64,000 nt of DNA from Paramagnetospirillum marisnigri (GTDB lineage: Bacteria; Pseudomonadota; Alphaproteobacteria; Rhodospirillales; Magnetospirillaceae). Below are positions 1,963 to 18,640 of the stretch, in pieces. The DNA is taken from NCBI RefSeq assembly GCF_001650715.1, contig NZ_LWQT01000098.1, positions 1 to 64,000 on the forward strand, written 5' to 3'. Both the position numbers and the translations under genes were made by a program. The notes below the pieces were generated by a model. The model was given only the letters and a program-made list of their open reading frames with translations, had not been told where the DNA came from and searched no databases. Within the stretch, counting starts at the first letter, position 1; every line of letters starts with the position of its first letter.

Positions 1963-2313
1963 ATGGACAAGATCATCAAACTGCTCGCCGCCGCAGTCGA
2001 TCCTGCTGCAACAGACCCAGAACGGCTGACGGCCATGAGCAAGATTGCAGCAATCCTCAACGCCAAAGGAATCCACGCAAGCCAATTGTCGATCAGGACG
2101 GATGACATCGAAATCGGCAGTTCGTCCATCGATTGGGAAAAGGAGGCCAAGGAATCGTGGGAAGAGCTTACTCGCCTGCGGCGGGAGCTATCCAAGCTCA
2201 AGACCGTCCATAAACGGGCGGCCAAGCCTAACGACTGCCGGGGCTGGTCCTCAACGGTGAAGGCCAACGTGGTGACTGACAAGGACGGGTACGTGGTTGG
2301 GTCTTGGTCGTGA
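1963..2313 (+). CDS. small hypothetical protein, 116 residues
   Basis: The ATG at 1963 follows an AAGGAGG ribosome site, 19 bases after the previous stop. The N-terminal half (KIIKLLAAAVDPAATDPE, then RLTAMSKIAAILNAKGI) looks helical. The middle is acidic and the region around residues 60-85 (WEELTRLRRELSKLKTVHKR) is a likely short coiled coil. The tail is YVVGSWS. The N terminus recalls phage and plasmid proteins that start with a helical repeat of the type K-LLALA-DPN--E---A, but the match is too loose to name. Nothing suggests an enzyme. It is probably co-transcribed with the gene at 1260-1943. Confidence 0.65.
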   Translation: MDKIIKLLAAAVDPAATDPERLTAMSKIAAILNAKGIHASQLSIRTDDIEIGSSSIDWEKEAKESWEELTRLRRELSKLKTVHKRAAKPNDCRGWSSTVKANVVTDKDGYVVGSWS

Positions 2314-2340
2314 CCCTATGCCGACAGGCAGACGATCAAT

Positions 2341-2411
2341 GGGTGATGTAGCTCACCGTAGAGCGGCGGCGAAAGTCGCAGGCGATGGGTCGTTCCCATC
2401 CATCACTCCCG
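2341..2411 (+). ncRNA. tRNA-like RNA with a GAAA tetraloop in place of the anticodon loop
   Basis: The stretch folds as a complete tRNA cloverleaf. The acceptor stem is 2342-2348 with 2401-2407 (7 pairs, one G-U), extendable by G2341-C2408 as in histidine tRNA. T and A occupy positions 8 and 9. The D arm is GCTC 2351-2354 with GAGC 2361-2364. The third arm is GCGGC 2366-2370 with GTCGC 2375-2379 and closes a GAAA tetraloop. The variable region is AGGC. The T arm is GATGG 2384-2388 with CCATC 2396-2400 around a seven-base loop, joined directly to the acceptor strand. The D-arm sequence TAGCTCA...GTAGAGC is canonical. There is no anticodon, the T loop (GTCGTTC) lacks the usual T54 and A58, and the 3' end is CCG rather than CCA. 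It is therefore not a decoding tRNA, but either a tRNA mimic or a decayed tRNA. Confidence 0.6.
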
Positions 2412-2449
2412 ATGGCGGCGTTGAACACTCGTTGATAACGAACGGACTG

Positions 2450-2540: not shown

Positions 2541-2717
2541 ATGCATGATAAGCCAAATAACGTAATTCTATTTACGAAAACTATAGATATAAACCCGGAC
2601 CATTACGCCAGAACATGCCCAAAGTGTGGAGGAATACACTACCTAATAACTCTTACAAATAAGATAATCTGCGATAACTGTTTTGTAGCCGCCGAGTTTC
2701 CTGATGATGAAATCTGA
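2541..2717 (+). CDS. small zinc-ribbon-like protein, 58 residues
   Basis: The ATG at 2541 is chosen over the one at 2523 because GAGG at 2531-2534 lies six bases ahead of it. The product starts MHDKPNNVILFTKT and holds two cysteine pairs, CPKC and CDNC, about 15 residues apart, with a GGIHYLITL strand between them. This is the layout of a small zinc ribbon that could bind nucleic acid or a partner protein. The gene is markedly AT-richer than its neighbours, which suggests acquisition by transfer. Its last 14 bases overlap the start of the next gene, so translation of the two is probably coupled. No function is known. Confidence 0.6.
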   Translation: MHDKPNNVILFTKTIDINPDHYARTCPKCGGIHYLITLTNKIICDNCFVAAEFPDDEI

Positions 2718-3027
2718 AGAAGAACTGATCTTGGTTGCCGCAATTGAGCGTCGATTGGCGGAACTGTCCTCCCGATATCCATCGTCAATTATGCTGGCTG
2801 TTGATAACGAGGGCCGAGCTTACCTGGACGCTGCCCTGGAGGATCGCCTGGGGGAGGTGGTGCTCACCGATAACGGCGGCGGCCCTTTGACCGAGGTGCA
2901 TTGGAAGACGGTTATCAACCACATCGGTTTCGTCGCCGTGATCGTGTGGCTGAGCGATCCACGAGACTTGGCCTTGGTCAGGCAGGCGTGTCGTGAGGTG
3001 GAGGAGATGCATCAGACAAACACTTAA
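2704..3027 (+). CDS. small hypothetical protein, about 107 residues
   Basis: Two ATGs in tandem (2704, 2707) overlap the end of the zinc-ribbon gene, and the ribosome site is weak, which fits translational coupling. The N-terminal half is helical (LILVAAIERRLAELSSRYP). The middle reads IMLAVDNEGRAYLDAALEDRLGE and the C-terminal part has a hydrophobic strand (NHIGFVAVIVWLSD) before a helical tail. I recognise no family. The last 50 bases overlap the end of the convergent integrase gene, so the two messages are antisense to each other at their 3' ends. Confidence 0.6.
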   Translation: MMKSEEELILVAAIERRLAELSSRYPSSIMLAVDNEGRAYLDAALEDRLGEVVLTDNGGGPLTEVHWKTVINHIGFVAVIVWLSDPRDLALVRQACREVEEMHQTNT

Positions 3028-4576
3028 TTGTCGCAATAAACGCCCTCATTTCAACGCTATTATATGTGTATTCACCGTGGAAATTCCTGATTTCACTTCC
3101 AATACACTCATCGTCCATGCCTATCCAGTTCACCCCAATCTCTTGCCATATTCGTATTAATTCACGGGCGTCAGAAAGGAATGGGTTTTTAATTTCTCTT
3201 TTCGCACCCGCCTTAGCATCTTTAAATACGTCGGCCAGCCCGATATCGATAGTCCCCGCAAGAGCCTCCAAATTTTCTCGCAGATTAATATCAGATGCAT
3301 AGTGCTTTCTGATTTGAACTTCAGATGTCCCCATATTTGCAGCAAGCTTGTATAAGTTAAATGGCGTCATATTATGTATCATCCATTGGCAGTATGAATG
3401 CCGCATACTACCAAGTGTACGATAACCACCCTTTCCATCACTCCACAGGCCAGCTTTTTGCAGTAGAACCTGGACACCATCATTAATGTGACATGGCTTC
3501 AACGGATTAAATTCATTTGAAAAAACATATTCAAGTGGGTCTTCAGTCTTTCTGTGTGCGAGCATTTCCACATATGTATTCATTATTTCAGACCGACAAA
3601 CGACAGATCGCACCGGCTTCAGTTTTGACCTTACATTGCTAATGTGCAGTGTTTTCCCAGATTGAACGGGAATTACAGCAATATCACCCCACTTAAGACT
3701 ATGCACTTCCGCAACACGCAAACCAGAATACAGCACAAACTCAAATGCACAAATCACCCTTCGCAATCTCCATTTGTGATAGTCCCGTTTCTCAGCATTA
3801 ATTCTTTTCTGCTGTAAGTCACAAATAGCTTTAAATTGGTCGGCTGTGATGGATGAACGTGGTGAATCTAGACGATCCGTGTAGACAGTTTTTGTGAGGC
3901 GATGCTCCGTCCTAAAATGTGTTTTCGAAAATCGCAAAACTTCATTGATTGTCATTGCATATTGATTAATTGTATTTCTATTGGATACGCCGAGCTTCCG
4001 CCTTGTAGTTTCCTGAACACGTCCATTCTTAACAAAGCTCAACTTACTAATATTTTTCCCAGGCCCTTCAGTCCAATAAGTTGCGAAATGGGTTTTTGCC
4101 CTCCTTATATCATCATCGCTTATATCCTTTATTTCCTTATCCGCAAAAAATGGGATCAGATACGAGCGTATGTGATTAATTTTCTTACCAAGTGTTTGAG
4201 GATGCCGCAGACGATCACCGTTTGGGGCACGCTCTCCATATTTCTTACGTGCCTTCAATTCTTCCTCAAGCTCTTCAGCTAATTTTTCGGCCACTATGCG
4301 GAAGGTCACATCCTTCCGGGGCTTTCCACTGCTGATTCTCGTCTGTAGCTTGATAAATTCAGCTTGGGCCTTTCTTCGAGCATCAGCCTCATCGGCGGTT
4401 CCGGTGGTCAAGCGAACCGGTACTCGCTCTCCTGGTCTCCTGAAAAGGCAGTACCAGCGATCCCCACGCCAATATAATTGCTGAGTTCCCTCTGATGCGG
4501 GCGTAAAGTTGAGCAGGATCGGTTCCCTGTGCTGCACTGTGTCCGTTGTTTTTTCAGCGTTTTTCGTGTGTCGCAT
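2978..4576 (-). CDS. tyrosine recombinase / phage-type integrase
   Basis: This site-specific recombinase is expected to insert and excise the element at its right end. The ATG at 4576 is preferred over the GTG at 4591, giving about 532 residues. The N-terminal region holds an AP2-like or arm-binding segment (QQLYWRGDRWYCLFRR) and then a core-binding SAM-like domain. The C-terminal catalytic domain shows the box I arginine in YSGLRVAEVHSLKWGD, a lysine region near SNVRSKLKPVRS, the box II arginine-histidine pair in LGSMRHSYCQWMI, and the tyrosine nucleophile in VQIRKHYASD. The usual HxLRH motif is altered to a serine-methionine form (GSMRH). The gene lies about 170 bases from the broken radC, the usual place for an integrase beside its attachment site, and is transcribed into the island. 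Its AT content is higher than in the core genes. Confidence 0.9.
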   Translation of the reverse strand: MRHTKNAEKTTDTVQHREPILLNFTPASEGTQQLYWRGDRWYCLFRRPGERVPVRLTTGTADEADARRKAQAEFIKLQTRISSGKPRKDVTFRIVAEKLAEELEEELKARKKYGERAPNGDRLRHPQTLGKKINHIRSYLIPFFADKEIKDISDDDIRRAKTHFATYWTEGPGKNISKLSFVKNGRVQETTRRKLGVSNRNTINQYAMTINEVLRFSKTHFRTEHRLTKTVYTDRLDSPRSSITADQFKAICDLQQKRINAEKRDYHKWRLRRVICAFEFVLYSGLRVAEVHSLKWGDIAVIPVQSGKTLHISNVRSKLKPVRSVVCRSEIMNTYVEMLAHRKTEDPLEYVFSNEFNPLKPCHINDGVQVLLQKAGLWSDGKGGYRTLGSMRHSYCQWMIHNMTPFNLYKLAANMGTSEVQIRKHYASDINLRENLEALAGTIDIGLADVFKDAKAGAKREIKNPFLSDARELIRIWQEIGVNWIGMDDECIGSEIRNFHGEYTYNSVEMRAFIATIKCLSDASPPPHDTPA

Positions 4577-4743
4577 TTGTGTTTTTACCACCAGATGGAT
4601 GACGAATCATACAGGGTGGATTGGCAGGTTTCAACGGCCTCGCGACGCAACATTTTGGGCATCACTCGGAAAATTACAGCTTATATGGTAAGTGTTGGGT
4701 TATTTGCTCTTTAAAGCGAAAATAAAAGGTCACCGGCTAACGA

Positions 4744-4902
4744 CACAACCACCCCTCGGGCGATCCCAAGCCGTCGCGCGCAGATATCGACATGACCCGT
4801 GCCGTCAAGGAGGCACTGGGCGCGGTCGGCATCGGAGTCCACGACCATGTGGTCATCGGCCGCAAGGGCCACGCCAGCTTCAAGGCGATGGGGATTTTGT
4901 GA
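4744..4902 (+). pseudogene. radC: radC 3' fragment, cut at the island junction
   Basis: Fifty-two codons in frame from 4744 read [18 protein letters not shown] and continue through [19 protein letters not shown] to a stop at 4900-4902. This is the C-terminal end of the RadC/JAB family, including its metal-binding HxHPSGD motif. The frame hits a stop (TAA, 4738-4740) two codons upstream, and no other part of radC is in the window. The gene has been separated from its 5' portion exactly at the motif, with the integrase just beyond, so this is most simply the right attachment site of an element inserted in radC. Its 3' end overlaps the end of convergent mipZ by 23 bases, an old core arrangement. 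Confidence 0.8.
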
Positions 4903-5728
4903 GCCTGTCCAGCCGCTCCGCCACCCGGGGCAGCCACAGATTGGCCAGCAGGGCGCAGACCTCGTCGCGGGCGGAATGGTGGGAGCGGGTCAGTTCCATG
5001 CCGATGCCCGCCTGCTCCACGTCCAGCACCGTCAGCCCCCACAGGAACATATAGCGGTAGATCACCCGCTCGCCGAAGCCCTCGGCCAGACGGAATCCCA
5101 GGATGCGCTGCATCTGCGGCAGCACATCGGCCATCATCTGCTTGTTGCGATCCGCCAGGGCCGACAGGCGCGAGCGGGTCACCACCCAGTCGATGCCGGA
5201 TTTGTGGCGGGCCCGGCGTTCCCGCCGCAGTTCCCAGACCAGATCGGAATAGACACCGGATCGCTTCAATTCGCGGCTGACCGGGTCCAGTTGCCCCAGC
5301 AGGTCCAGGTCCAGCAGGCTGTCGTTGAGCGGCGTGATCAGGGTATCGGCATGGGTATGGGCATGGCGCGACAGCGGCGCGTCGGCACCGGGACAGTCCA
5401 CCACGATGAAATCGGCGGCGCCCGCCAGCTCGGCCAGGGCGGCATCCAGCGCCGCCTGTTCCTCCGCCACCGCTTCCGACTTCAGGTCCAGGGCCGAAGG
5501 CCGCACCACCGCCTGGGTGGGCATGGGCAGGGCGACGCCGGTACGCTCGACCCAGGACAGGCGGTTGGCGACATAGCGGGCCAGGGATTGCTGGCGGTGG
5601 TCCAGGTCGATACAGCCGACGCGGAAGCCCAGGCGCAACAGCCCCACGGCCAGATGCATGGCCACGGTGGTCTTGCCCGACCCCCCCTTTTCGTTACCGA
5701 TCACCACCACATGGGCGCGTCCCGCCAC
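4880..5728 (-). CDS. mipZ: MipZ, division-plane positioning ATPase
   Basis: MipZ is a ParA/MinD-type ATPase of alphaproteobacteria. It binds the ParB-parS complex, forms a gradient from the poles and blocks FtsZ assembly away from midcell. The deviant Walker A loop KGGSGKTT follows VVVIGNE at residues about 7-21. The second conserved aspartates are in [24 protein letters not shown] at about residue 110 is the Walker B region. WVVTRSRLS and the long C-terminal helices match the family, and 282 residues is the usual size. The start is a GTG at 5728 behind a GGAGAGGGAAG ribosome site. It is divergent from the histidine kinase gene and convergent with the radC remnant. Confidence 0.9.
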
Positions 5729-18569: not shown

Positions 18570-18640
18570 AGGATGTAACCCTCCCTCTTAGGAAGGGACG
18601 CGGCCCGTTGGGGGGCCGTGGCCCGGCGGGAGTTTATGAG
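18570..18640 (-). promoter_or_regulatory. candidate serC-type leader RNA
   Basis: Directly ahead of serC the transcript can form two hairpins. One is GGGAGGG with CCCTTCC (coordinates 18579-18585 with 18591-18597, seven pairs, five-base loop), and it contains the ribosome site itself. The other is CGGCCC with GGGCCG (18601-18606 with 18613-18618). A conserved RNA element called the serC motif is known in front of serC in alphaproteobacteria and has a hairpin at the ribosome site. This region fits that description, but I cannot check it against the covariance model. Confidence 0.5.

Follow-up and report, generated by a model that had tools for sequence, protein, structure and literature searches.

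The island genes around the tRNA-like element

The DNA analysed here, referred to as the window, is a stretch of 64,000 nucleotides that carries a series of small island genes near its beginning. On the plus strand, a conserved island gene of 228 codons (positions 1257–1943) is followed by an open reading frame of 116 codons (ORF116, 1963–2313). Beyond the tRNA-like cloverleaf RNA (2342–2408, plus strand) that is the subject of this report, two further plus-strand frames encode proteins of 64 aa (2523–2717) and 107 aa (2704–3027). The 228-, 116- and 107-aa products match no Pfam family at an E value of 0.001. The 64-aa protein has CxxC motifs, and its homologue at L032:9208-9402 gives a weak match to a zinc ribbon. 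A tyrosine recombinase, the integrase of the island (Phage_integrase, 1.1e-9), is encoded on the minus strand at 2978–4591, and a sequence match identifies a 3′ fragment of radC just past this gene, at 4756–4899.

An initial annotation of this DNA had placed the RNA between two small island genes, and this position is confirmed. It had also proposed that the RNA could be a tRNA mimic, a regulatory RNA or an attachment-site decoy of the island. The first two proposals are the leading readings, whereas the third is unsupported because the integrase gene sits between the tRNA-like element and the radC fragment. This arrangement suggests that the island ends at radC, and the attachment site is therefore probably there and not at the tRNA-like element. 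A MipZ ATPase gene (4880–5728, minus strand) adjoins the island end. Farther along the window, a serC leader RNA (RF00517) is found at 18575–18628 on the minus strand, scoring 36 bits where the cut-off is 35.

A tRNA shape closed by a GNRA tetraloop

The window locus holds a tRNA-shaped structure with a GNRA tetraloop at the place of the anticodon loop. The exact cloverleaf occupies 2342–2408, and the span of 2341–2411 quoted earlier adds one base on the 5′ side and CCG on the 3′ side. As read from the sequence, the acceptor stem (2342–2348 with 2401–2407, GGTGATG/CATCACT) comprises 7 bp, including one G-U pair, and is followed by T8-A9 at 2349–2350. The D stem pairs 2351–2354 with 2361–2364 and precedes base 26 at 2365. 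A 5-bp stem with a GAAA tetraloop (2366–2379, plus strand) takes the place of the anticodon arm, with 2366–2370 paired to 2375–2379 (GCGGC/GTCGC, one G-U pair) and the tetraloop at 2371–2374; this assignment is based on the sequence and on pair-keeping changes in homologues. A variable loop at 2380–2383 leads to the T stem (2384–2388 with 2396–2400), which encloses the T loop (2389–2395), and the discriminator C2408 is followed by CCG. The encoded 3′ end reads CCCG or ACCG across copies.

Every arm of the originally described cloverleaf, with its four paired arms and GNRA cap, is thus confirmed by sequence. The assertion of exact tRNA geometry holds for the stems but not for the elbow, which is degenerate. 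The D-loop (ACCGTA) is short, contains a single G and provides no G18-G19 pair, and the T-loop, GUCGUUC (GTCGTTC in DNA), lacks both U54 (T54) and A58, so that the canonical elbow formed by G18-G19, T54 and A58 is absent. The minimum free energy fold of the 71 nucleotides contains all four arms, with a z score of −3.71, and is better than 199 of 200 shuffled sequences. In a longer context (2310–2500), the minimum free energy fold swaps the acceptor pairing for a helix with bases that lie past the deletion junction of the window copy.

Relaxed-score searching with Infernal, a check suggested at the outset, recognizes the tRNA form. When 91 bases are searched by cmscan with permissive filters, the Rfam tRNA model RF00005 matches the element with 36.0 bits (E 1e-6) and is aligned completely, from model position 1 to 71; the curated cut-off is 29 bits. 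A second copy of the element in the same genome scores 39.2 bits against that cut-off. Relative to the model, the third loop has 4 bases instead of 7, and the D-loop is one base shorter. The Infernal match appears with 91 bases, where filters relax, and is lost at 401 bases or more, where filters tighten. Consistent with this behaviour, the element is not listed when the whole window is compared with Rfam at curated thresholds, is not matched at E values up to 5 when 401 bases are searched, and is not among the 47 matches of a genome-wide RF00005 search. ARAGORN reports no tRNA and no tmRNA in the window. If the E value of the 91-base search is extrapolated arithmetically to the 4.6-Mb genome, with tRNA as the only model, it becomes about 1e-5.

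The geometry by itself is a less demanding test. Order-2 Markov sequence built from the window, 64 Mb in all, contains 45 instances of the exact arrangement with any third loop of 3–9 nucleotides, which gives an expectation of 0.045 per 64-kb strand versus the one occurrence in the window; a smaller Markov run yielded 0 occurrences in 12 × 64 kb. Cloverleaf geometry by chance is therefore uncommon rather than impossible. Since it is not overwhelmingly rare, the case is carried by the covariance score and by conservation, and on these two grounds, not on geometry, the earlier rejection of chance stands.

Conservation among island copies

The cloverleaf lies within a conserved block (2284–2427, plus strand) that also contains the last codons of ORF116. 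DNA comparison recovers the full 144 bases in eight copies: the window; a second locus of the same genome (C28, 96% identical); and six related genomes (G126, G102, G110, G094, G213 and G158), in which identity over the 144 bp is 96–98%. The full block is carried by 6 of the 17 genomes of the genus and by 7 of the 55 of the family. One further genome (G255) has only the first 33 bases, without the tRNA-like element, and the remaining matches among 297 genomes of the order are short (E 2.5e-4 to 0.0094).

The most divergent copy is that of G126. Compared with G102 in 30-base steps, it is 0.93–1.0 identical from −69 to +140, and identity in the flanks is 0.51–0.6 at −249 to −160 and 0.73–0.87 at +141 to +320. 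The two loci are also alike outside the block, at −399 to −250 (0.83–1.0) and at +381 to +530 (0.93–1.0), and in single steps at +561 and +681 (0.97–1.0). Given these other similar stretches, recombination may contribute to the conservation of the block.

Five positions vary within the 71 bases: three in stems, one at T-loop position 60, and the discriminator. All stem substitutions keep their pairs (in the tetraloop stem, C-G becomes U-G and G-U becomes A-U; the acceptor has G-C for G-U). Broken stems or a normal seven-base loop in relatives had been named beforehand as findings that would speak against the proposal, the normal loop by making this a decayed copy. All stems are retained in all eight copies, and each has GAAA where the seven-base anticodon loop belongs, which upholds the earlier statement that the RNA cannot decode. 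The search for covariation had a mixed outcome: GAAA and pairing are kept, but no pair is changed on both sides among the four distinct sequences that the eight copies represent, and with such high identity and so few sequences the test is a weak one.

These data bear directly on whether the cloverleaf might be a mere relic, left by a tRNA gene or an attachment site from which the anticodon loop has disappeared. The tRNA-like D-arm and overall model match would fit such an origin, as would the ACCG terminus of the second copy, which is near to a CCA end. Decay would be expected of a relic, yet the stems and the GAAA loop persist in every copy. Moreover, no host tRNA stands out as a parent, with the best alignments to tRNAs for Phe, Thr, Trp and Val scoring alike in a comparison with 37 tRNA predictions in 30 loci of the 47 RF00005 matches (an earlier comparison used the first 50 bases only). 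The integrase side of the island likewise points to radC. We regard a relic as very improbable.

Protein coding is the other explanation that conservation could invite, because a 49-codon frame overlaps the cloverleaf from position 2318; part of this frame is present in the window copy (2318–2427, plus strand). If it were a real gene, the cloverleaf would be a by-product, and the start and stop codons are indeed intact in all seven full-length copies. However, its 12 variable sites in the eight copies comprise 2 synonymous and 10 nonsynonymous changes, which is near the mix of 113 synonymous to 319 nonsynonymous among all possible single changes, and a 56-aa version has no family match. The frame is judged to carry no sign of protein-level constraint. 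Every stem change, by comparison, keeps RNA pairing, and the tRNA model matches, which makes a short protein a highly unlikely explanation. The sequence is conserved as DNA across eight island copies, and protein coding does not explain this. In sum, the element is a genuine tRNA mimic, conserved and locked by its GNRA loop but degenerate at the elbow; its structure is well supported, and its function is inferred.

Similarity beyond these islands is sparse. Phage DNA yields nothing beyond a 27-base match (E 0.2) in two records of Listeria phages, plasmid DNA gives no match, and the exact D-arm pattern has 0 matches in viral contigs. A covariance model of the eight copies was run over 385 genomes of the class with stricter filters and with scoring limited to 13 candidates per genome. 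It gave at least 26 matches, two of which are the genome's own copies, and 18 of the other 24 overlap a tRNA called by ARAGORN. Among the six that do not (23.5–31.4 bits), five were inspected by eye, and none of these is a capped cloverleaf.

The tRNA-like element at the head of a cargo cassette

In the other copies, the tRNA-like element stands at the 5′ end of a small cassette and is followed by an orphan 193-aa gene and then by a gene for a small HicA-like protein, an order seen in six loci. The 193-aa gene follows the RNA in all seven other copies, although in G110 the contig stops within it, and the 65-aa HicA-like protein is present in the six loci whose contig reaches far enough. The small protein is identical in five of these and 68% identical in G126. 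Among the 297 genomes of the order that were searched, the 193-aa gene and the RNA share the same seven. The window copy is reduced. At a junction between 2427 and 2428, recognized by comparison with the other copies, its sequence jumps from the RNA to the downstream region, so that the RNA is kept and both protein genes are missing. In G255, the end of ORF116 runs almost straight into the downstream region, and neither the RNA nor the 193-aa gene is present.

Several features of the surrounding site were also observed. An inverted-repeat hairpin, found by alignment at 2450–2486, lies about 40 bases behind the tRNA-like element, and in the C28 copy it comes after the cassette; it has no T-run and was not called as a terminator. 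A string search finds its first arm in seven of nine loci (the window, C28, G102, G094, G213, G158 and G255); the arm is absent in G126, and the G110 contig ends before its place. The interval from ORF116 to this hairpin is a variable cargo site, which is nearly empty in G255 (L014). In C28 (L030), G094 (L011) and G158 (L013), an extra segment separates ORF116 from the RNA block, amounting to about 650 bases in C28.

This gene order provides the main rival to a role in trans, namely that the RNA is a cis-acting leader of the 193-aa gene and serves as an RNase P/Z processing signal, a stabilizing cap or the binding site of an autoregulator. The RNA precedes the gene in all seven loci that have it, and both occur in the same seven genomes. 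High identity extends to about +142, just before the start codon of the 193-aa gene, and a consensus scan of positions 2200–2600 detects neither a sigma-70-like promoter on the plus strand nor a terminator-like site that would isolate the RNA. Against this stands the window copy, which keeps the RNA without the gene; nothing would keep a leader so stranded from decaying, although the gene may have been lost only recently. Leaders also do not usually need anything as elaborate as a full tRNA cloverleaf. On balance we consider the leader explanation somewhat unlikely.

The boldest local form of action in trans would be a type III-like toxin-antitoxin system, in which the tRNA-like RNA neutralizes one or both downstream proteins, one of them resembling the HicA RNase. 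The order of RNA, 193-aa gene and 65-aa gene would suit such a system, as would the presence of the RNA in all seven loci with the 193-aa gene and its retention, without the genes, in the single reduced locus. The 65-aa protein, identical in five of six loci, matches the PADLOC HicA-like profile (9.2e-5) and is predicted to adopt an alpha-beta-beta-beta-alpha fold (pLDDT 70). This HicA evidence is weak, however. The Pfam HicA match (0.036) falls below the cut-off, a Foldseek search gives nothing at E 0.001 or better and ranks a HicAB complex (E 0.31) behind unrelated structures, and no HicA appears among the sequences of solved structures at E 1. The 193-aa protein belongs to no known family (no Pfam or PHROG match, and 0 occurrences in viral contigs), and its AlphaFold model (pLDDT 43.6) is unusable. 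Known type III antitoxin RNAs have a repeat array, and this RNA has none. A system of this type appears decidedly unlikely.

A wider set of GNRA-capped cloverleaves

GNRA-capped cloverleaves also occur outside this family. They were sought with a pattern that combines a TAGCTCA...GAGC D-arm, a TTCRA T-loop and a spacing fixed for a four-base loop, and that samples the group via this D-arm alone. A full cloverleaf was taken to have all 5 bp of the third stem paired, at least 5 of 7 acceptor pairs and at least 4 of 5 T-stem pairs. In IMG/VR viral contigs, 10 of 59 pattern matches are full GNRA-capped cloverleaves (two of the 10 are identical), compared with 2 of 29 for the equally degenerate control loop AGNR and 1 of 15 (14 classified) for CNYT. 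GTDB contigs contain at least 119 pattern matches, and 118 were classified, with 23 full cloverleaves among the matches listed. With a looser first pattern, 4 of 80 loci checked among the matches listed had a fully paired third stem and a tetraloop.

In a 26-row alignment (A8) that includes both copies of this genome, 97.8% of cells pair versus 31–50% with slid partners, a percentage biased upward because the 24 outside rows were picked for good pairing; that choice does not account for the variety of pair types. Covariation is strong in the acceptor, third and T stems, and the pattern itself dictates the D stem. The outside rows are 17 of the 23 genome cloverleaves, 5 of the 10 viral ones and two from the looser pattern, with duplicates and most weak acceptors excluded.

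Among the matches listed, a Band_7/SPFH gene is present in 16 of the 23 full genome loci and in 4 of the other 95, as judged with a profile that drew 13 of its 16 proteins from the full loci and 3 from the others, so that only 3 and 1 of these, respectively, are new matches. Those four other loci are near-miss members of the same capped group, and the Pfam Band_7 model independently matches 18 of the 23 proteins of alignment A6. A neighbour scan of 113 proteins, which took in 33 of 41 loci and excluded 8 tRNA-array loci and part of the candidate ORFs, found 10 Band_7, 3 RtcR and 1 RtcA.

A second tRNA-like lies directly behind the capped cloverleaf in the eight inspected GTDB loci with a nearby tRNA call (L308, L310, L313, L321, L323, L336, L361 and L307). 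For six of these followers ARAGORN gives an anticodon, a different one each time; for those in L361 and L307 it gives none, and the L307 follower appears to be GAAA-capped too. Seven of the eight loci, all except L336, have a Band_7/SPFH gene. The capped cloverleaf and its follower possibly constitute a pair of one uncuttable and one cuttable tRNA. Capped cloverleaves are also seen inside tRNA arrays in viral contigs (L149, L146, L228, L243 and L247, the last with a weak acceptor) and in genome contigs (L373, L381 and L273). ARAGORN either misses these array members or labels them tRNA-??? or, in L243, tRNA-His.

The window RNA has the same unpermuted cloverleaf, 5-bp third stem and GNRA tetraloop as the Band_7-associated group. 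It differs in several respects. Members of the group have TTCRA T-loops (imposed by the pattern) and, in many cases, CCA or CCA-like ends, and the window RNA has neither; nor does it have the second tRNA-like found in some of them (the eight loci inspected) or the Band_7 gene found in 16 of 23 among the matches listed. None of the 297 genomes of the order that were searched, this one included, contains the TTCRA-type GNRA pattern, and this genome has no match to RtcB or RtcR. Because the Rtc setting is lacking and the pattern is absent from these genomes, the wider group is treated as an analogy and not as ancestry. The window RNA is accordingly filed as one that may work like the Band_7-associated, GNRA-capped group, with kinship not proven. 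From the phage arrays, the Band_7 genes and the Rtc neighbours, we infer that the settings of GNRA-capped cloverleaves are linked with tRNA damage and repair.

Comparison with known tRNA-like RNAs

The Y RNA YrlA, a partner of Ro60/Rsr, is a noncoding tRNA mimic, as the window RNA very probably is. In Salmonella, YrlA belongs to an RNA-repair operon, and no YrlA fragments are reported to appear when tRNAs are cut (PMC7790460). Y RNA can be superposed on tRNA if the fold is circularly permuted (PMC11472068), and it is held to Rsr by a large basal stem (PMC8394870). The window RNA is instead unpermuted and ends at the acceptor. Membership in the Y RNA (YrlA) class is ruled out, given the missing permutation and the lack of any TROVE/Ro60 match at E 0.01 in this genome. 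Similarly, tmRNA has a tRNA-like upper half without an anticodon (PMC3985003). It carries a tag reading frame, whereas the window RNA is a closed cloverleaf.

Another comparison is with the phage tRNAs that evade anticodon nucleases, since they are tRNA-shaped with an altered anticodon loop and GNRA-capped forms occur in phage tRNA arrays. The argument for such escape comes from van den Berg et al. In the passages relied on here, phage tRNAs are argued to evade anticodon nucleases through changes to the loop, and these published tRNAs still serve translation (PMC10264068). The window RNA differs in that it cannot decode.

No description of a GNRA-capped tRNA was found in the literature searched, which covered the Y RNA and RNA-repair survey literature in part. 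The text available from one source (PMC11090510) has nothing on GNRA-capped tRNA-likes, and another places an SPFH gene inside an rtc locus (PMC13086221). The tRNA-likes of Rtc/SPFH operons may already have been described in the RNA-repair or Y RNA literature.

Proposed function and significance

The overall best explanation is a noncoding tRNA mimic that most likely serves as an uncuttable decoy or inhibitor, a combined reading that we hold tentatively and with somewhat less than even confidence. Its two parts differ in strength. That the RNA is a noncoding tRNA mimic is very probable; that it serves to decoy or inhibit a nuclease directed at tRNAs is plausible but falls short of probable. 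In this proposal, the cloverleaf would be transcribed as the 5′ part of the small cargo cassette and trimmed like a tRNA, with RNase P acting at the acceptor stem. It would then act in trans as a tRNA look-alike that is unable to decode and has no anticodon loop for a nuclease to cleave. By occupying a tRNA-binding protein, likeliest a tRNA-targeting nuclease of the host, a phage or the cassette, the RNA would serve as a decoy or inhibitor.

Retention of the RNA without both protein genes in the window copy is expected if the RNA can act alone. Conversely, the lack of a recognizable plus-strand promoter or terminator-like site in the consensus scan speaks against this proposal, and the degenerate T- and D-loops mean that tRNA-binding proteins that depend on the elbow may not bind it. 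What appears to be the closest printed precedent for a decoy mechanism concerns YrlA, whose uncut tRNA-like domain is proposed to be a competitive inhibitor of anticodon nuclease (PMC7790460).

A broader conjecture, which we consider unlikely as it stands, would make the GNRA-locked tRNA shape the RNA component of a mobile cassette for defence or of a toxin-antitoxin type, where it would bait or neutralize a tRNA nuclease. It would then be one instance of an unnamed class of "locked tRNAs" used by phages, islands and Rtc/SPFH operons wherever tRNAs are attacked.

The kind of RNA, a tRNA mimic, is known. Its GNRA-locked form appears to be new and points to a wider group without description in the literature searched. 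Such RNAs are easily overlooked or mislabelled, as ARAGORN missed the window RNA and labels many look-alikes "tRNA-???". If these RNAs are indeed decoys or inhibitors of tRNA nucleases, they would join repair and replacement as a third RNA-based response when tRNAs come under attack, and the role of bacterial tRNA mimics would become directly testable in small cassettes.
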